Virus record (IMG/VR): IMGVR_UViG_3300025435_000018
Location: 1-64,000 of that record
Length of the DNA: 64,000 nt
Reading direction: 5' to 3' (one strand)
Origin: a virus
Under the pieces are notes generated by a model that was not told where the DNA came from, made no database searches, and was given only the letters and a program-made list of their open reading frames with translations. The position numbers and the translations under genes were made by a program. Of this stretch, positions 30,388 through 60,688 are shown piece after piece (position 1 is the stretch's first letter; each line of letters opens with the position of its first letter).

Positions 30388-30587
30388 GCCCACCTCAACA
30401 AGAATGCTGTTACTTCTTCAGGAGTCTTGAACTGCCACATGTCATAGCTCATTCTAACACCGCATGAATTTTCCTGGCTCCACTGTTGGACTTGATACAA
30501 CACAATGTCGAAGTTTATGGGCTCAGTCCAAGTACACTGGAGCCAAAGGCCCTGGGGTTTGCGATCAAGCGTGGTCCATTTTAACAT
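30384..30587 (-). CDS. small F-x-L-R-W family protein (67 aa)
   Basis: Ends PEEVTAFLLRWA. I start it at the ATG at 30587 (MLKWTTLDRK) because GGAG precedes it; a longer frame in the same phase lacks such a site and would reach into the divergent GIY-YIG promoter. Central QVQQWSQENSCGVRMSYD segment as in paralogues. Confidence 0.7.
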   Translation of the reverse strand: MLKWTTLDRKPQGLWLQCTWTEPINFDIVLYQVQQWSQENSCGVRMSYDMWQFKTPEEVTAFLLRWA

Positions 30588-30617
30588 GCTTACAGTCTCC
30601 ACGAAATTTGAAACCGC

Positions 30618-30625
30618 TATAAATA
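30618..30625 (+). promoter_or_regulatory. late promoter TATAAATA, leaderless geometry
   Basis: Perfect TATAAATA on the plus strand, 5 bases before the ATG of the GIY-YIG gene at 30631. It is bracketed by a four-base inverted repeat CGCT/AGCG. Confidence 0.75.
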
Positions 30626-30630
30626 AGCGT

Positions 30631-31323
30631 ATGACATACAAACTTTATATCAAAACACATACAAAGACGGGATTGAAATATCTTGGGTATACCCGCCAAA
30701 ACCCACTCACTTACAAAGGTTCTGGAAAATACTGGAAACTTCATTTGACTAAACACGGAAATGATGTTGAAACAGAAATACTCCACGAAACCTCCGATAA
30801 GAAAGAAATCAATCGTCTTGGTATACATTATAGCACACTTTGGAATATTGTCGCAAGCCCAGAATGGGCTAATCTTAAAGAAGAAGCAGGGGATGGTGGA
30901 GCGATTCCACAAAAACCAGAATGGAACGCAAAACGATCAGCTGCCTTAAAAGGTCGCAAATTCAGCGAAGAACACAAAGCAAATTTGTCAAAAGCAAATA
31001 CAGGTAGAAAAGATACCCGAAGCCCAGAGACAAAGGCGCAAGCCGCTATAAAAGCATCAGCAAAACTCAAAGGTCGCAAAAAGCCCGAAGGGTTTAGTGG
31101 AGCTGTTAGTAAAAGAAAACTTGGCACAAAACACTCCGAAGAAACATTACACAAAATGAAAACGGCTTGGACCGCGGAAAGAAAGGCCGCACAAGCAGAA
31201 AGGCGGCAAATTCAAAATGAAAATGCCCCGTTGCTTGTTTGCCCACATTGTGGAAAACAAAGCAAAAATAAGGGCAATATGAACAGATATCATTTTGATA
31301 ACTGCACCAAGTGCTTACACTGA
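30631..31323 (+). CDS. GIY-YIG-type homing endonuclease with C-terminal zinc finger (230 aa)
   Basis: The N-terminal TYKLYIKTHTKTGLKYLGYT is a degenerate GIY-YIG core with a following KGSGKYWKLHLTKHG, a pattern also seen in T4-like phage endonucleases. Middle: NUMOD3-like repeats (GRKFSEEHKANLSKANTGRK and GTKHSEETLHKMKTAW). C-terminus: CPHCGKQSKNKGNMNRYHFDNC, a zinc finger. It is on the plus strand, flanked by minus-strand genes, and is probably an intrusive mobile gene. The stop overlaps the convergent gene by 34 bases. Confidence 0.8.
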   Translation: MTYKLYIKTHTKTGLKYLGYTRQNPLTYKGSGKYWKLHLTKHGNDVETEILHETSDKKEINRLGIHYSTLWNIVASPEWANLKEEAGDGGAIPQKPEWNAKRSAALKGRKFSEEHKANLSKANTGRKDTRSPETKAQAAIKASAKLKGRKKPEGFSGAVSKRKLGTKHSEETLHKMKTAWTAERKAAQAERRQIQNENAPLLVCPHCGKQSKNKGNMNRYHFDNCTKCLH

Positions 31324-32960: not shown

Positions 32961-32982
32961 GAAAAACCCGCCGAAGCGGGTT
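32961..32982 (-). terminator. intrinsic terminator downstream of the tmRNA
   Basis: AACCCGC / GCGGGTT hairpin with TTCG-type loop and U-run on the minus strand. It ends the tmRNA transcript. Confidence 0.85.
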
Positions 32983-33390
32983 CTGCTATTTTGGTTAAGA
33001 AGGCATAACTGCCCCCTGGGTTTCGCTGTTTAGGCGAATGCTGCCTCTGTACGAGCAACTCGGGTTCCGCCGAAACGGAAACCTTTAGCTGCTTTTACTT
33101 TGACTGCCCCGATTTTTGTAGATGTTTTTGCATTTACGTTTTTTTGTCGTCTTCGGCCAGGTTCCCCCAACCCTACGGCTTCCACATTGCCGAGCGCCAT
33201 TACCCTTACTCTTTGCCCTGTCGAATCCTTTCAGGCCCAACTAAGTAGTTTAACCCAAGTGCTTCGTGTCCTGTCTTAAGGGGTCACGGCCTTGTCCGAT
33301 AGAAGACAGGCAAGAAAATCGGTTAACTAAATCAAACTACTTAGGTGGACCTGCCGGCATACGATAGCCGGGTCCAGAACACTTTTCTTA
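32983..33390 (-). ncRNA. ssrA: putative circularly permuted (two-piece) tmRNA
   Basis: A stretch of about 400 bases with no convincing protein gene has tmRNA features in permuted order on the minus strand. (a) Coding piece: 5' GGGCCTG (33232-33238), then the signature GGATTCGACAGGG (33217-33229), then a tag frame from GCA at 33131 to TAA at 33030 (33 residues: AKTSTKIGAVKVKAAKGFRF then GGTRVARTEAAFA). (b) Acceptor piece upstream: P2 strand TGTTCTG, GAC, T-arm-like CCGGC-TATCGTAT-GCCGG (33354-33371), then CAGGTCC-ACC (33344-33353). CAGGTCC pairs with GGGCCTG over 7 bp (one G-U). (c) The intervening 33239-33343 folds by itself with a long inverted repeat. tmRNA rescues stalled ribosomes and tags the product for proteolysis; ClpP is encoded in the same window. 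The T-loop is non-canonical. Ends are approximate. Confidence 0.8.
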
Positions 33391-33412: not shown

Positions 33413-34267
33413 TTATTTAACTTTTCTTGCACGGAACGCAACTCTTATGCTCATAATAGTGTTGTTTCTATTACGTGTTGGTTGTGTACTGTGCAGGGTA
33501 CGTCCATCATAGATGATTAATCTGTTGGGACGCAAACACACCAAGGCACCTTCATCTTGCCATCCAATGTTATAGTTACGGCGTTGTTGACTAGGCCCGT
33601 CATTGAATTGTTGATGATCACCTGTAGCACCTGTGGGGTCTTCAGGATAGAATACAAGTTCACCGCCCCAACTTGGATACCATTCAAGTGTGGCGACATA
33701 CAACATAGTCACAGTATTTTCATCACTGAGATCGGATGTGTCTCTATGTACATAGCCCTGTAGTGTCAGTTCATCATGTCGACTACCGTTGGCATAGCAT
33801 CTCCAGCCCTGTTCAATATTGGGATCTTGTGTAGCAGGCATGGGGTAGTCTTTCCAAGCCATGCCCTCGGGCTCGCCGTCTAGGGTATACTGGTTGTCTA
33901 ACTTGAGATTAATGCTGTCCCACAGTTCACCAATAACGGGATGTTTTTCTTTAACACTGGCCTCATCAACACCAAACATGGTGCGCGGCTGTGAACAAGT
34001 TGGTCTACGTGCCGCAGGCCCAATCCAAGATGCATCCCATTCATTGGGTTTGAACAGTTGCATTTCAGAGTGCGTACCTATCCAATATTGGTGCCAAGGG
34101 CAGTTCATTAGATAGTCATAAATTTTCTTGTGCTGTGCTTGATCAAGAAAATTGTCATGCACTTCCCAATTGGGCAGTCGTTCAACTCCAGGAATTGAAA
34201 AGGGCGGTTCGTTGTGTTCTTTGAACACGCTGGGTTTTTCTTTGTAGGGTAGTCGGACGTAGCTCAT
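33413..34267 (-). CDS. 2-oxoglutarate/Fe(II) oxygenase (284 aa)
   Basis: Has the HxD iron site in YVHRDTSDLSDE and the distal His plus Arg of the facial triad in LIIYDGRTLHSTQPTRNRNN (His, then Arg ~10 residues on). A WGGELVFYPED strand lies between. This is the prolyl-4-hydroxylase-like fold common in T4-like phages, hydroxylating a protein or small molecule; substrate unknown. A late box (AATAAATA, 34283-34290) lies 15 bases upstream of the ATG. The gene ends immediately before the tmRNA acceptor piece. Confidence 0.8.
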   Translation of the reverse strand: MSYVRLPYKEKPSVFKEHNEPPFSIPGVERLPNWEVHDNFLDQAQHKKIYDYLMNCPWHQYWIGTHSEMQLFKPNEWDASWIGPAARRPTCSQPRTMFGVDEASVKEKHPVIGELWDSINLKLDNQYTLDGEPEGMAWKDYPMPATQDPNIEQGWRCYANGSRHDELTLQGYVHRDTSDLSDENTVTMLYVATLEWYPSWGGELVFYPEDPTGATGDHQQFNDGPSQQRRNYNIGWQDEGALVCLRPNRLIIYDGRTLHSTQPTRNRNNTIMSIRVAFRARKVK

Positions 34268-40919: not shown

Positions 40920-41425
40920 TTGGTCCACAACAATAGGTTATATGTGCCGCGGTCACTGGCGTATGGTTCACCTGTAACTCTAAAGCCGGCAAATTTTAAT
41001 ATGGTATTGATAACTGTGTTTTGCTCGCGTGTTGTAGCAAATACTTGAGCAGGCATACGATTTCGCATTGCACCTAATAGACGAACACTAACACCACTGG
41101 TTCTATGTGCTGGGTCTACAAAAGCATATCCAACTTCAAGATTGTAGTTGCGTTCTTGTTCAGGTACACCTGCTTTGTCAAATACACGTTGTTTATACTG
41201 TGGGTTTGGTACTTTAAGAACCACGGCACCGACCATTTGTCCGTTAACACTGGCACTGGCAATCATGGGAGATCTTGACAAATTTTGCTGCACCAGGCTC
41301 ATGTTGACTTCGCCACCTTGTGCTATCAGATTGGCAATCTGTTCAAGCTCTTGGGCTGTGTAAGCTGAACTAGGCTCAACTCGAACGTTAGAGTCAACAG
41401 ATTCTGTTAGTTCAATTATTTTCAT
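40916..41425 (-). CDS. GNAT-like N-acetyltransferase (169 aa)
   Basis: MVGAVVLKVPNPQYKQRV then LEVGYAFVDPAHRTSGVSVR: strand beta4 (GYAFVDPAHRTSGVS) is a degenerate GNAT motif A, followed by a helix and the ATTREQNTVINTILKFAGFR segment. An acyltransferase role is likely though the pyrophosphate loop is atypical. It starts at ATG 41425, sharing TGATG with the amidoligase stop, so it is translationally coupled. Confidence 0.7.
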   Translation of the reverse strand: MKIIELTESVDSNVRVEPSSAYTAQELEQIANLIAQGGEVNMSLVQQNLSRSPMIASASVNGQMVGAVVLKVPNPQYKQRVFDKAGVPEQERNYNLEVGYAFVDPAHRTSGVSVRLLGAMRNRMPAQVFATTREQNTVINTILKFAGFRVTGEPYASDRGTYNLLLWTK

Positions 41426-43575
41426 CAATCATCACCCATAATTGGATAGACTGCAATGTCACTCATGTCGGCACCTTCGGGACCATTGTCTCTTAACCAT
41501 TGGTCTGCTACTCGGTTGGCATCTGCCTGACTGTTGCCTACTCCACTGAATCTGTATAATTCTTGACCAGTGCTGTCATCAACTACCCGCCAGGCACCAG
41601 TGAACTCGCCTTGTGCTCGACGTTGCTGTCGGTCTACTGTTGAACCTGGTACGGGTGCGGTGGGCTCAATTTCAGGGAACAGGTTGATATCGCCCACTGG
41701 TTCTTGTGTGGGTTCAATCTCACGTACTTCAATATCGGTACGCATAGTAGGGCGTGAGGCACGTTGCTGTTCAATCCATTGTTCAGCAGCCTCGCGACTT
41801 GGGAATCTATACAATGGTACCCCGGCACCTCTTGCATACCATCCAGGTAGGTTAGCAAAACGATTGTTGCCATTGACCCAAATGCCCCAGTTGCCCTGTG
41901 TTTGTGCTGGTTGTGCTGCTGGTTGTTGTGTTGCAGCCACTGAGTGCAATGACACATCAACGATGTTGCGGAATCTGCTGGGATACTGCTCACGTGCCAT
42001 CTGCATGGCTTGGTTAGGATTACGTGCTTGGAACATCATGGCATAGCCACTGGCGTCTTTGACATCGTAGTATTGCAGGCCTTCTTCACCACCATCCTTA
42101 TTGGGATCGCGTTCTCGCTGTGCTTGACGTACAAAACTCTTGAGTGCTGCCTGTGGAATCTCACCAGCAACATATCGGGCAAAGTATTCAATGGTGCTCT
42201 TGTCACCGCTGGGCGCCAACAGTTTGTACAGTTTCTTCAAGTAGTCTTGTTTGTATTTGTTTTCATCAATAGCAGCATCTAAGGCCACAACAAAACGCAA
42301 CAAGGTTGGTTCAATCTTGTTGTAGAAGTCGTTTAGCCAATCACCGCCGGGACTGCGAAACTCAATATAACCGTCTTTGGTATTGATACTGGTGTACTTG
42401 TCGGTGGTACCTGCATGTATGGCCTTGCTGGCAGCAACATTGACATGTTCTTTCATCTTGTCCAATGCTTCTCGGGCTGTATGCGGATTACGTTTAATGG
42501 TGTCTTTGATGATGCCCAAGGCGCTCTTACAATAGGTATTGCTGAGTCGGTCAAATTCTCGTAACACATATTCATCGCCCATCAACAAGGCCAACTTGAC
42601 ATAGTCAAGTTTGGCTAGTGTGTAACCTTGAACGCTGACATTGATGTGTAGGCCTGTGTTGTAGTCAGCTCCGGTATAGCAGCCTTCACTCTTGGCCCAC
42701 TGTTTGACTTTTTGTAAGTCACTTAACAGTTCACCAATGGGCAAGGGTGGGCTAACAAACTCTAGGCCAGTGTCGCCCGGATTGCTGGCTTCAAGACTGC
42801 TGTCGGGTTCAACCACATAGTGACCTTCTTCACGACGAGCACTGTGATAGCTGGTGGCAGCATTTACTGGGCGGCCAATGGCACGACTAAAATCGTCAGC
42901 TATGTCTTCGGGCGAGCGCCCATCACCGCTGCTGCTGGGACTGGTATAATAGGGCCATGTGATGTCATAGTTGTTGGCAATGTTTGTCATGCGACGATAG
43001 CCTGAGTCCTGTAACCATTCACTGTCATCGTGGTCCTCGCGATATTCTTCGTCAAATTCTTCACGGGCGCTATCATAATAGCTGTTGTTTTCTTCGTAAC
43101 TCTTTTGAGCCAACTTGGCGTATTCTTCAGAGCCAACATCAGGATAGTCGCCATCCTCATTTGCTTCAATGCCCAATTCGTCACAGACTTCATCGTCACT
43201 GAGATTTTCTTTTAGATATTTGAGTAGGTATTCAAACCCACTGTGTTCCCAGGCCTCATCAAGGTGTTCTTGTTGCCATGAGTAGAAATCTTCTTCCATG
43301 CTCTGACGTAGCCGATCAATTTCTCTGCGTCCGTTCATATCGCCGTCATGAAAGAACTCGCAAATGTCATCAATGCTTCTAGCACGTTCGTCCATGTCGT
43401 AGTCGGGTTCACTTTCAAAATCTTCCTCGGAACCTTCTGCGTTGGGCACAATCATTTCAAATTCCATGCCTGCCCGAGCATTGATCTTGCTAGCCAACTG
43501 ACGCAGGCTGGTGGGACTCATATTGACTTCTGTTAGAGTCTGTTCAACAACTGGTTTAATCTGTTTATAACGCAT
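41425..43575 (-). CDS. amidoligase-family protein (716 aa)
   Basis: Shows the amidoligase_2 pattern: ARAGMEFEMIVP near residue 35, LEFVSPPLPIGELLSDLQ near 270, TGLHINVSVQG near 310, and DGYIEFRSPGGDWL near 405. This fold (glutamine-synthetase/GCS-like) forms peptide or amide bonds, and published comparative work links it to GNAT genes. A 150-residue acidic insert (residues 45-200) precedes the core. The C-terminus carries two similar beta units (GIWVNGNNRFANLPGWYARG, then GAWRVVDDSTGQELYRFSG). It leads the operon from the late box beside 43583-43606. Confidence 0.8.
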   Translation of the reverse strand: MRYKQIKPVVEQTLTEVNMSPTSLRQLASKINARAGMEFEMIVPNAEGSEEDFESEPDYDMDERARSIDDICEFFHDGDMNGRREIDRLRQSMEEDFYSWQQEHLDEAWEHSGFEYLLKYLKENLSDDEVCDELGIEANEDGDYPDVGSEEYAKLAQKSYEENNSYYDSAREEFDEEYREDHDDSEWLQDSGYRRMTNIANNYDITWPYYTSPSSSGDGRSPEDIADDFSRAIGRPVNAATSYHSARREEGHYVVEPDSSLEASNPGDTGLEFVSPPLPIGELLSDLQKVKQWAKSEGCYTGADYNTGLHINVSVQGYTLAKLDYVKLALLMGDEYVLREFDRLSNTYCKSALGIIKDTIKRNPHTAREALDKMKEHVNVAASKAIHAGTTDKYTSINTKDGYIEFRSPGGDWLNDFYNKIEPTLLRFVVALDAAIDENKYKQDYLKKLYKLLAPSGDKSTIEYFARYVAGEIPQAALKSFVRQAQRERDPNKDGGEEGLQYYDVKDASGYAMMFQARNPNQAMQMAREQYPSRFRNIVDVSLHSVAATQQPAAQPAQTQGNWGIWVNGNNRFANLPGWYARGAGVPLYRFPSREAAEQWIEQQRASRPTMRTDIEVREIEPTQEPVGDINLFPEIEPTAPVPGSTVDRQQRRAQGEFTGAWRVVDDSTGQELYRFSGVGNSQADANRVADQWLRDNGPEGADMSDIAVYPIMGDD

Positions 43576-54350: not shown

Positions 54351-54784
54351 GTGTAGATCCAGCCCAGGTGTTCTAGCTGGTGAATCCAAGTAAAAATGGG
54401 CGTCGAAAAGTGTAGGCACCAACGTCCGTTCCAACCCATGTAGGTCGATCCGTGATACACACTGGGTAATACTTTTGTTTGCTCACTTGCCCAGGGTTCA
54501 GGATACACTGGTGTGTAGGTACTGCTCCACTTGAAACGATCTAGTCGCATACCTTCAAACTCTACATAGGCAATTTCAACAGCCATGTCAGGATCATTGT
54601 CGGGCTTGTTGTAAAAGTCAATGAACAATTCATGCGGTCCTGCTGCTAAATCCAAATTAAAGTTGAGCTCGCAAGGCTCTGCTAACTGCAATCCCTTAGT
54701 CACATCAACACCATCTAGTCCATAGTTGATACAGGCGGCACCGTGCGGTACAAGTCCAATCTTAAACTTGGTATTGTATTGCAT
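54347..54784 (-). CDS. carbohydrate-binding-like protein (145 aa)
   Basis: FNLDLAAGPHELFIDFYNKP then DNDPDMAVEIAYVEFEGMRL fits a beta-sandwich module that binds sugars (similar proteins occur beside glycosyltransferases in cyanophages). Its C-terminus WNGRWCLHFSTPIFTWIHQL is aromatic. It overlaps the radical SAM gene by 23 bases, so they are probably co-translated. Function inferred. Confidence 0.65.
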   Translation of the reverse strand: MQYNTKFKIGLVPHGAACINYGLDGVDVTKGLQLAEPCELNFNLDLAAGPHELFIDFYNKPDNDPDMAVEIAYVEFEGMRLDRFKWSSTYTPVYPEPWASEQTKVLPSVYHGSTYMGWNGRWCLHFSTPIFTWIHQLEHLGWIYT

Positions 54785-56051
54785 CTAAAAACTCTCGGTA
54801 CTCGGGATAGTAACTGTATGCATCTAGTTTGTACTCACGGTCCCAACGTTGTAACCAAACAGCCAGTTCTTGTCTCAGTTTTGCTACATCATTGGGTTCA
54901 GGAGCACCCAACAAATTAATCATTGCATCACATTCTCTACGCAAAGTTGTATTCAACGTGCCTACATTACGTCCAGTAGCCAATCCAGTAAACTGTCCGG
55001 GATCAATTGAATCCTTTACCCGTTGATAATGTTCGACAAACTGTTGTCGTAATTTGCAAGGTAGAACTGATATCTGTAGGTATTCAGGTGCAGTTACCGG
55101 AATGCCTTGTAAGGGTAATTGTTGTTGCCATGCCCAAGCAATTAATTTATAATAGTTGTTAATGCTGAGTAGTTGTGGCGCACTTCTCAATACTACATGA
55201 AACGTGTCTGACTGTTGCTGGACCAATTTGGCTATGTTGCCCATGACCACAGTTGTATCAGTTCCTGTACGCAAATAGTCGTTGTTGGATTCAATACTTT
55301 CAATGCTGACTTCAATATCACAACTGCGGAATCGTTTCAGTCTATCTACAATGGTTTGATCAAATAGTGTTCCGTTGGTTACAAAACTAATTGACACGTT
55401 GGCTTTGTCGTTGTCTAGTAGAAAGTCTAACAGTTCAGGAAAACGCTTGTTCAGCAGGGGCTCGCCGCCCATGAAATGTATTCTGTTTAGATTGGGTGTT
55501 GCCAGTACGCTATCTGTAAAGTTTTGCCATGACAGTGGATCTAGTGTCCAGTTGCGATTGGCACTGACATCTATCAGTTGCCACTTGGTGTAGAGACTGG
55601 ATATCTTACTGCTGGCGCTGGGTCTGCACATTCTGCAGGTGAGGTTACATTCATTGCCTAGATCCACGTGCCAATCAACAGGTTGTCTAGCACCAATGGG
55701 ATTCTCAAAGGCAGCATACATGGGACTCTGTTGATAGCTGCGTTCAAATGCCTGTTCTGTAAAAATTACGCTCTTGAAGTTTTCTTTGATACGTCGACTT
55801 TCGTATCCCACTGCTTCTTCTCGATAGCAGGCTGTGCATTGTGACAAGGGTTGACTACCCTTGATTTGTTCACGTGCTTGGGTCATGACATCTGTAGCAT
55901 ACCACTGTGCCACAGTCATGTTTTTTAGATTGTATTTTGTGGGTTCTTGATGTGGTGCGTGACGTTCACTGCAACACATGCCAAAACTGCCGTCCCAATA
56001 TATGTGCGTATTGGTCCAAGGCACATTACAAAATATCTTCTGATTGGACAT
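54762..56051 (-). CDS. radical SAM protein with twitch/SPASM-like N-terminus (429 aa)
   Basis: CNLTCRMC (residues about 134-141) is the CxxxCxxC cluster motif. Upstream: FCNVPWTNTHIYWDGSFGMCC and LSQCTACYREE hold extra Cys, as in twitch-type radical SAM proteins. MGGEPLLNKRFPELLDFLLD matches the GGEP motif and LR-x-GTD...; DIEVSIES strand also. The reaction is not clear; such phage proteins often lie near glycan-related genes. Confidence 0.85.
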   Translation of the reverse strand: MSNQKIFCNVPWTNTHIYWDGSFGMCCSERHAPHQEPTKYNLKNMTVAQWYATDVMTQAREQIKGSQPLSQCTACYREEAVGYESRRIKENFKSVIFTEQAFERSYQQSPMYAAFENPIGARQPVDWHVDLGNECNLTCRMCRPSASSKISSLYTKWQLIDVSANRNWTLDPLSWQNFTDSVLATPNLNRIHFMGGEPLLNKRFPELLDFLLDNDKANVSISFVTNGTLFDQTIVDRLKRFRSCDIEVSIESIESNNDYLRTGTDTTVVMGNIAKLVQQQSDTFHVVLRSAPQLLSINNYYKLIAWAWQQQLPLQGIPVTAPEYLQISVLPCKLRQQFVEHYQRVKDSIDPGQFTGLATGRNVGTLNTTLRRECDAMINLLGAPEPNDVAKLRQELAVWLQRWDREYKLDAYSYYPEYREFLDAIQYQV

Positions 56052-58975: not shown

Positions 58976-59484
58976 ACATGTCCTGTTATTTGAAGTGTGT
59001 AACGCGGTGCAATACCAATATTGGCTGCTGCGTGTGGAGTATCATAACTCCATTCTAATACTGTGCCTGCTGTCCAGTTTACCATACCTACACCATTAAT
59101 CTCGCTGTAGTGTCCTGGTTGCCAGTCTTCTAAAAATATCACTGCACGACGAATAGTATCTTCACGTCCTTGCAAGTTATGTATTGTAACATATCTTGCA
59201 TATAAGTCACTATGTGTTGGCAAAACTGTTCCAGTGTCCATGCGGTAATAACTGGTGCCAATATCCTTCCAGCCCAAGTCTTGATAAATTTTTACAAACT
59301 GATCATTCCAGCTAGGCTGTTGTGTACGCATGTCGGCCATGTAGCCAGTAAATTGATTGGTGTAGCCCATACTGGTCCAACGTTGGATACTGGCAGAGTC
59401 ATTGAACTCCTCTTGTGTATAAACCAACTGTCGGTATTCGTCGTCCCAAAATACTGGGATCTTATACCTGGCGTGTATTGCCAT
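58972..59484 (-). CDS. hydroxylase-like (aspartyl/prolyl beta-hydroxylase fold) protein (170 aa)
   Basis: TGTVLPTHSDLYARYVTIHN has H-x-D, and YDTPHAAANIGIAPRYTLQI has the distal His and Arg of a 2OG/Fe(II) facial triad, spaced about 60 residues. The HSDLYARYV ... RRAVIFLEDW arrangement is like Asp beta-hydroxylases. It would oxidise a protein or sugar. It overlaps the amidinotransferase and dehydrogenase genes; the overlap with the dehydrogenase gene is 23 bases. Confidence 0.65.
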   Translation of the reverse strand: MAIHARYKIPVFWDDEYRQLVYTQEEFNDSASIQRWTSMGYTNQFTGYMADMRTQQPSWNDQFVKIYQDLGWKDIGTSYYRMDTGTVLPTHSDLYARYVTIHNLQGREDTIRRAVIFLEDWQPGHYSEINGVGMVNWTAGTVLEWSYDTPHAAANIGIAPRYTLQITGHV

Positions 59485-60688
59485 AGTGTAAGACCTTTAT
59501 GCCTGCTGTGTCACGTGGATATGTGCGCCATGGATCAACAATGATACTGCCCGCTTCAAACTCACAATACTGTTGCTGTGCTTGATCCACACCCGCATAA
59601 CCATAAGTTATTATGCGATTGTGTGCCAATAACACAACACCTTTAATACTTGCAGGAGTTGTTGCTTCTGTTAATGGATCAATGTATGTAGGCTCGTGTC
59701 CAAACTCAGTACAGTAGTGTCCAACCAACAAACTGTAGCTGCCTTCCAAATAGTCTACATCTGGTTTATAGGCCTTACCATGTATGTAGATAGGCAGTTC
59801 GTACAGCTCGGCTTGTTCCACTAAAGCCAGTGCCATTAGTTTAGCCTGCTTTTCTCTGGCCCGCATGATAGCATCAAACAGATCATAGCCCAGTTCTAAC
59901 TTCTCTGCCAAGAAGCGTAGAGCAATGTTGTCACGTGGGTGGCACGGGCCTGCATCTCCTAACCCCGCAGTCATATATTTAGGTCCCATGATTCGCATAC
60001 TTGATTTTGCAAGTGCGTTTGTCACAACATCAACGTTGATGTTTCCCTGCTTTATTGCAACGTCCTGGATCATGTTTACTAAACCGATCTTGGCGCTGAT
60101 AAAGGTATTATAGAAGACCTTAATGCACTCTGCTTCATCCCATGTGCCAACTTCATAACGTGGATCGTTTTGCATCAAGCCACGATAGAACTCAATCAGT
60201 TCTGCTGCATCTCCAGTTACGCTGCCATCTTCTGTGCCAATAATAACCATTTCAGGGTTGACCATGTCCCATTCAACTGAGCCCATGGCAATTAGATAAG
60301 GATTGTAAATGAATCGGCCATTTGTAATCAGTGGGCGTAAGCGTTCACGAGTAGTGCCAGGCAATACTGTACTAATCAATACAACCAGCTGATTAGGCCT
60401 AACATAGGCATTGACCTGCTTGAGCACATTCTCAACAATGGTATAGTCAAAGTCCACGTTCTCAAGATGTGTAATGGGTTCAGCGCCACCGTACTTGGGA
60501 TCATGTGGAGTTTGTACAGCGATAAAGATAATGTCTTGCCCAACAACTGCCTCACTCAGTGTATCAGCAATTTTAATTTTATCGCTATCTTTACGATAAA
60601 TATCATATCCAGTAACAGAGTGCCGGGTAGCCATTACTTCGGCACAGGCCATTCCTAGTTTTCCAATTCCAATAAATCCTACATTCAT
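59462..60688 (-). CDS. UDP-glucose/GDP-mannose 6-dehydrogenase family
   Basis: N-terminal Rossmann loop VGFIGIGKLGMACAEVMA, catalytic Cys249 in GLGDAGPCHPRDNIAL (canonical G-G-x-C-x-P-K/RD), Lys200 in FISAKIGLVN. The middle and C-terminal domains are complete at 408 residues. It oxidises a nucleotide sugar to uronic acid for a surface polysaccharide. The ATG at 60688 is only 2 bases from the divergent gene's ATG at 60691. Confidence 0.88.
   Translation of the reverse strand: MNVGFIGIGKLGMACAEVMATRHSVTGYDIYRKDSDKIKIADTLSEAVVGQDIIFIAVQTPHDPKYGGAEPITHLENVDFDYTIVENVLKQVNAYVRPNQLVVLISTVLPGTTRERLRPLITNGRFIYNPYLIAMGSVEWDMVNPEMVIIGTEDGSVTGDAAELIEFYRGLMQNDPRYEVGTWDEAECIKVFYNTFISAKIGLVNMIQDVAIKQGNINVDVVTNALAKSSMRIMGPKYMTAGLGDAGPCHPRDNIALRFLAEKLELGYDLFDAIMRAREKQAKLMALALVEQAELYELPIYIHGKAYKPDVDYLEGSYSLLVGHYCTEFGHEPTYIDPLTEATTPASIKGVVLLAHNRIITYGYAGVDQAQQQYCEFEAGSIIVDPWRTYPRDTAGIKVLHYGNTRQV

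Follow-up and report, generated by a model that had tools for sequence, protein, structure and literature searches.

A phage-encoded circularly permuted tmRNA with a long, conserved tag

The locus and its permuted tmRNA gene

The window, by which we mean the whole 64,000-nucleotide stretch that was analyzed, comprises positions 1 to 64,000 of IMGVR_UViG_3300025435_000018, an IMG/VR viral contig of 65.7 kb. On its minus strand, at 33405-33030, lies a complete circularly permuted tmRNA gene, which we checked on the sequence. The gene starts about 8 bases after a co-directional gene for a putative 2OG-Fe(II) oxygenase (33413-34267, minus strand), whose match is below the Pfam cut-off, and is closed by an intrinsic terminator (32963-32984, minus strand; sequence prediction). 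As no sigma-70-type promoter was found for the tmRNA gene, the upstream oxygenase gene is the likely source of its transcription. A sequence-only reading of this locus had claimed a circularly permuted two-piece tmRNA in a phage, with no convincing protein gene for about 400 bases. Both claims held, the second because no open reading frame of at least 80 amino acids lies between 32868 and 33413, and the first on the strength of the Rfam match, the anatomy and the covariation described below.

The permuted arrangement is plain from the order of the parts, all on the minus strand. The acceptor (3' tRNA-like) piece comes first (33405-33344), and the match to Rfam RF04321 begins at its first base. 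It contains the 3' strand of P2 (TGTTCTG, 33381-33375), GAC and the T-arm CCGGC-TATCGTAT-GCCGG with its non-standard 8-nt loop (33374-33354), the 3' strand of the acceptor stem (CAGGTCC, 33353-33347) and ACC; the GGAC before the T-arm is kept, and the A of CCA is not encoded, a T coming next. An intervening sequence of 105 nt follows (33343-33239), which is expected to be removed and whose ends, TAAGTAGTTT and AAACTACTTA, pair as a 10-bp helix by sequence and fold. The coding piece, from 33238, opens with the 5' acceptor strand GGGCCTG (33238-33232) and continues with the D-loop signature, GGATTCGA in the transcript and GGATTCGACAGGG at 33229-33217 by sequence and Rfam alignment, and with the 5' strand of P2 (CAGGGCA, 33221-33215). 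Next come a PK1-like region (33195-33152; CTCGGC...GCCG...GGCCGAAG), where a pseudoknot is predicted from the Rfam alignment only, and the tag reading frame (33131-33030), with the resume codon GCA (33131-33129), 33 codons (AKTSTKIGAVKVKAAKGFRFGGTRVARTEAAFA) and the stop TAA. The acceptor strands form a full 7-bp stem that includes G3.U70, and the P2 strands pair at seven of seven positions.

The sequence-only reading had placed the signature, the tag frame and the acceptor strands (CAGGTCC-ACC, 33353-33344, with GGGCCTG) at these same positions, and had described the 7-bp stem, the TGTTCTG-CAGGGCA pairing, the retained GGAC, the folding back of the 105 intervening bases and a 33-residue frame from GCA to TAA; all of this held on checking. 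Its count of about 11 Lys/Arg residues in the tag failed, as there are 8 (five Lys and three Arg), and the charge of the tag was thus overstated.

We also observed T-loops that lack the usual TTCRANY and are unusual for a tRNA-like domain: TATCGTAT occurs in the window (33359-33366) and in the related locus L006, and GGCAGTG-like loops occur among L193, L205 and L216.

Covariance models recognized the window gene as a permuted tmRNA. RF04321 (tmRNA_permuted) scored 71.3 bits against a cut-off of 47 (E 1e-11 over the whole window). The sole other family match shown was RF01850 (beta_tmRNA) at 41.7 bits (E 1.4e-11), below its cut-off of 84, so that the gene is beta-like without meeting strict subtype membership. 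None of 100 shuffles folded as well as the transcript (z-score -3.75). ARAGORN made no call for the window gene, which is thus shown to escape that program; among 110 relatives it called 62, in each case with this same frame of the long tag. Of the two checks that the sequence-only reading had proposed, then, the covariance search was positive and the ARAGORN run was not. The ARAGORN miss, the RF01850 score below cut-off and the non-standard T-loop are points against what we consider the best explanation overall, and a likely one: a phage-encoded, circularly permuted two-piece tmRNA of betaproteobacterial type, whose rescue action and long-tag handle are inferred.

The record is that of a tailed phage, possibly incomplete, for its gene products include an ATP-dependent DNA ligase and nucleases as well as a head maturation protease and a tail protein. 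The nearest ligases of cultured phages are only about 35% identical to that of the record. The same tmRNA also occurs in a second record, IMGVR_UViG_3300025449_000140 (L015), where the oxygenase upstream of it is identical too. Class-wide and order-wide surveys of bacterial genomes turned up neither the host nor the long tag. No SmpB (PF01668) was found in the source record or 20 relatives (21 phage records, which may be incomplete), and no SspB was found in the phage records searched; the phage tmRNA must therefore rely on the host. Transfer RNA genes lie within 1.5 kb of the tmRNA in 50 of 114 loci.

Elsewhere in the window, a gene at 30505-31323 (plus strand, among mostly minus-strand neighbors) carries a NUMOD3 motif, typical of homing endonucleases. 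A large protein with an Amidoligase_2 domain (41425-43575, minus strand) has only three IMG/VR relatives, at 43-57% identity, and a radical SAM/SPASM enzyme (54762-56051, minus strand) and a UDP-glucose dehydrogenase (59462-60688, minus strand) are possible surface-glycan or modification genes.

Covariation of the RNA among relatives

Relatives were gathered by five pattern scans of IMG/VR viral contigs, in which complete tags of 27-34 amino acids were counted. The scans yielded 110 loci with conserved tags of this length, representing 85 unique tmRNAs and 68 unique tags; long tags are thus spread over many phages, and the resume codon, the tag frame and its stop are conserved. RF04321 was over cut-off in all 50 related viral records of one batch, three short-tag records included, and in 24 of 26 of a second. 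One of the two misses, L280, begins so close to its contig end that there is no room for the acceptor piece.

The acceptor stem is paired at seven of seven positions in all 128 related phage tmRNAs, with long and short tags alike, across 20 distinct stem sequences. Because the parser kept whichever T-arm-bearing candidate paired best, and only if it had six pairs or more, this count is biased upward; compensation between stems is independent of that bias. Positions 4-7 vary as pairs (G-C, C-G, U-A, A-U and G-U), pair 2 is U-A in two stems, and the alanine-identity wobble G3.U70 is invariant in 20 of 20. Full compensation is also seen among the stems of the tag class to which the window belongs (GGGCCTG, GGGGGTG, GTGGCGG, GGGCCGG and GGGGGTC). 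P2, whose pairing played no part in the choice of candidates, averages 6.26 of 7 pairs over 47 distinct helices, against 4.09 for shuffled partners (sd 0.16, maximum 4.72 in 5000 shuffles). The sequence-only reading was to be refuted if acceptor pairing were lost in homologous phages without compensating changes; as the pairing is kept through compensation, this did not occur.

These data bear on whether the locus is a tmRNA gene at all. It could be a gene fragment, either decayed or captured, or else a structured RNA of another kind with a signature mimicking that of tmRNA, and in favor of this the window gene is among the weaker-scoring members and is missed by ARAGORN. However, relatives retain all of the functional elements, with compensating changes, so that covariation contradicts this reading; the tag frame is intact and under selection, and the covariance-model match is strong. 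We therefore regard it as very unlikely. The RNA itself is secure; the role of its long tag is inferred, without data on expression, charging, SmpB binding or tagging.

Several variations among the relatives deserve mention in their own right. The acceptor, intervening, PK1, tag and terminator modules appear to be freely recombined. The tRNA-like domain has a variant form in L155, L178, L210, L238, L265 and others: CAAGAC stands in place of TGGAC before the T-arm, and the D-loop reads ATCGATTGG instead of TTCGACAGG, so that P2 differs in a concerted way, U-A for C-G. Many members (L172, L181, L227, L244 and others) have a short hairpin-like stretch such as ACAGTAGGCGATGACTGT instead of the PK1 region. 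The intervening sequence can itself contain reading frames. In L009, L011, L027 and L029 a small frame with a Shine-Dalgarno-like AAAGGA encodes MFENWHWVYMWGILVVVNYMFWIIKSLF, likely a membrane micropeptide; L018 has a different one (MIEAIGFFVTLLVLMWIATILGEIFF), and L233 and L250 have similar ATG-started frames. Micropeptide genes may thus nest within permuted tmRNAs. In L008, L010, L014, L023, L025 and L026 the intervening sequence encodes PTTCCG[RK]GCEGCVWISYFEAL without a start codon; this resembles the end of an oxidoreductase-like Cys-rich protein, and L244 and L249 have a comparable reading immediately before the tmRNA.

Selection on the long tag and its exchange

The window tag has 33 amino acids against the usual 10 or so and ends AAFA, and so does not qualify as a canonical short LAA/AA degron. 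The long tags fall into three related, alignable classes. The first (VSGK) reads VSGKxVKFSAR..LAV, more fully A[KN][AT][SN]T-GEVTVSGK[NG][VI]KFSAR...[LF]AV. The second (FSGK) is represented by FSGKGVKLASARREAVLA, more fully AKASTxGSFKFSGKGVKLASARREAVLA. The third, the window's own (KGFRF), reads KGFRFGG..TEAAFA, more fully AKTSTxxGxVKVxAxKGFRFGGSKVAxTEAAFA, and its members are L055/L282/L291, L280, L281 and L283-L290. A Pfam search gave no match for the tag, and the best hit of a profile search of the PDB had an E-value of 1.4. The tag may bear some resemblance to the C-terminus of ribosomal protein bL28. A predicted structure of the tag (pLDDT 58, pTM 0.15, a C-terminal helix only) was of low confidence and was not used.

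The tag is under selection at the protein level. Mean dN and dS were 0.090 and 0.467 for the VSGK core (45 haplotypes) and 0.263 and 0.875 for the KGFRF core (10 haplotypes), giving a dN/dS of about 0.2-0.3. The third codon position is the most variable in the tag, both alternative frames hold stops in every KGFRF haplotype, and codons switch between families for Ser (TCN/AGY) and Arg (CGN/AGA). Together, these four observations argue that the peptide, its middle included, is selected and not the RNA alone. A frame error was considered, because in the Rfam alignment the tag stops at GCAGCTAAA, which is out of frame and reads Ala-Ala-stop. It was rejected, since ten KGFRF haplotypes keep the frame past GCAGCTAAA with codon-level variation up to their stops.

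If only the last few hydrophobic residues matter, the locus would be an ordinary tmRNA with an over-long but ordinary degron, the remainder being a passive spacer. This is possible. The C-termini remain small and hydrophobic (LAV, FAV, AFA, VLA, VAA and LAA), and sister phages have canonical ANDEQFALAA-type tags on the same backbone. However, conservation is highest in the tag's interior (VSGKxVKFSAR, KGFRFGG), which also shows the protein-level selection and Ser and Arg codon switches described above, which counts against a passive spacer, as this should drift.

A second possibility, which we rank slightly below the passive spacer, is a stabilizing or decoy tag: an ending of ...LAV or ...FA would escape ClpXP, sparing the phage's incomplete proteins or titrating host proteases. 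The canonical LAA is indeed rare. Among the 110 loci, 59 tags end in LAV, 29 in FAV, 9 in AFA, 4 in VLA and 9 in other residues, so that LAA is replaced in 107 (VAA and LAA counted as kept), and cultured phages with a permuted tmRNA keep LAA or IAA. In Escherichia coli, C-terminal changes weaken turnover by ClpXP (ADAS variants, PMC8512704), which supports this reading. Against it, the conserved basic core is left unexplained, an AA ending persists in three members of the class that includes the window, and no measurement of a ...LAV ending was found in the literature searched.

Long and short tags are exchanged on the same RNA. The parsable loci of the first scan comprised 14 short tags, mostly of the AND..FALAA type, and 8 long ones. 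Up to the resume codon, 273 nt of L009 and L011, with the long tag AKANTTVTVSGKNVKFSARTAKESLAV, match L027, with the tag ANDSQFALAA, exactly; from there on the sequences diverge. Phages thus replace canonical tags by long ones, or long by canonical, while keeping the RNA; that long-tag and short-tag phages infect the same host would be an inference only.

The long tag appears to be new, within the genomes, phages and literature searched. By tblastn, nothing was found for VSGK- or KGFRF-class tags in 50,697 phage records or for the VSGK tag in 72,556 plasmids. The sensitivity of these searches is limited: a match must score about 34 bits by our estimate, a level attainable for most VSGK tags but, in the KGFRF class, only for near relatives of the query. 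In 84,980 bacterial and archaeal species genomes, a VSGK/FSGK core pattern, which does not cover the KGFRF class, gave 13 matches, none in a tmRNA context. Two-piece tmRNAs in phages have been published, with 53 structures, mostly marine and including that of Melnitz (PMC9004378, 2022), and a tmRNA database lists 79 unique phage tmRNAs with a commonest tag length of 10 amino acids (PMC11915505, 2025). As no long phage tag was found in the literature searched, which leaves out most subscription journals, the novelty lies in the long conserved tag and not in a permuted phage tmRNA as such. The suspicion in the sequence-only reading that a long basic tag is undescribed held to that extent.

Proposed action and comparison with known systems

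We propose a model in which a single precursor would be cut at the intervening sequence by host tRNA-processing enzymes (RNase P and 3' processing), leaving an acceptor piece of about 60 nt and a coding piece of about 230-260 nt held together by the acceptor stem and P2. Once CCA is completed, host AlaRS and host SmpB would load the tmRNA, which would enter ribosomes stalled on broken mRNA during infection; resumption at GCA would add Ala and the 33-amino-acid tag, and the ribosome would be released at TAA. The phage may benefit where infection, mRNA decay or host defenses leave ribosomes stalled, and the nearby tRNA genes would fit a translation-support module.

What the long tag does is less certain. 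It may retain a degron in its small hydrophobic C-terminus, perhaps a weaker one where ...FA or ...LAV replaces ...LAA, and add a conserved basic module, V-x-V-x(2-4)-GK-x-[VF]-[KR]-F/L, followed by a short helix. This module could be a phage-specific handle by which rescued proteins are redirected, whether to a given protease, an adaptor or some other partner. We favor a handle with a modified degron over a passive long degron or a stabilizing or decoy tag, although the handle itself remains tentative, falling a little short of probable. It is inferred from conservation alone, with no Pfam or structure match and a low-confidence fold. A bolder reading, to which we would not quite commit, is that a large, freely recombining family of phage tmRNAs has replaced the host proteolysis tag by a conserved basic module of 27-34 amino acids with its own partner, so that rescue in infected cells would mark incomplete proteins with a phage-specific address and not simply a degradation signal.

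Tags of tmRNAs are regarded as short C-terminal degrons. The finding of a long phage tag with a conserved interior, in place of the canonical one and with the rest of the RNA identical, suggests that the output of trans-translation has acquired a new function through selection in phages. Why phages carry tmRNA at all is an open question that the tag swap makes directly testable, and the long tag supplies a ready peptide for pull-down.

Among known systems, the window gene shares with the betaproteobacterial two-piece ssrA (RF04321/RF01850) the order of acceptor piece, intervening sequence and coding piece, as well as the acceptor stem, P2, the D-loop signature and the resume-codon context UAAAUGCA. 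It differs in its 33-amino-acid basic tag, where those of ssrA have about 10 residues and end LAA, in its non-standard 8-nt T-loop and in its score under the RF01850 cut-off. Melnitz and about 50 other, mostly marine, phages likewise encode permuted tmRNAs (PMC9004378), but that of Melnitz is alpha-type whereas the window's is beta-type; the tmRNA passages of that paper do not mention a long tag. A further difference is that Rfam found no glutamine riboswitch in the window.

Cultured phages also have beta-type permuted tmRNAs, over the RF01850 cut-off and some beside tRNA genes. Unlike the window gene, these encode short canonical tags of 12-14 amino acids ending LAA or IAA: ANDDSYTVRIAA in Stenotrophomonas Menderavirus (with an N-terminal VA per the ARAGORN call), ANDTSFDVRLAA in Pseudomonas SM1, ANANTFDYALAA in Xanthomonas XacN1, ANDNVFGAKTLAA in Acinetobacter BUCT628 and ANDDSFAPMAIAA in Stenotrophomonas DLP6. 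The XacN1 tag shares its ANANT start with many long tags, from which we infer that long tags may have originated when residues were inserted into a short tag of this kind. Finally, Mycobacteriophage DS6A also has a phage-modified tmRNA (PMC4131195); it is tRNA-like only and lacks a tag frame, whereas in the window phage the tag is enlarged.
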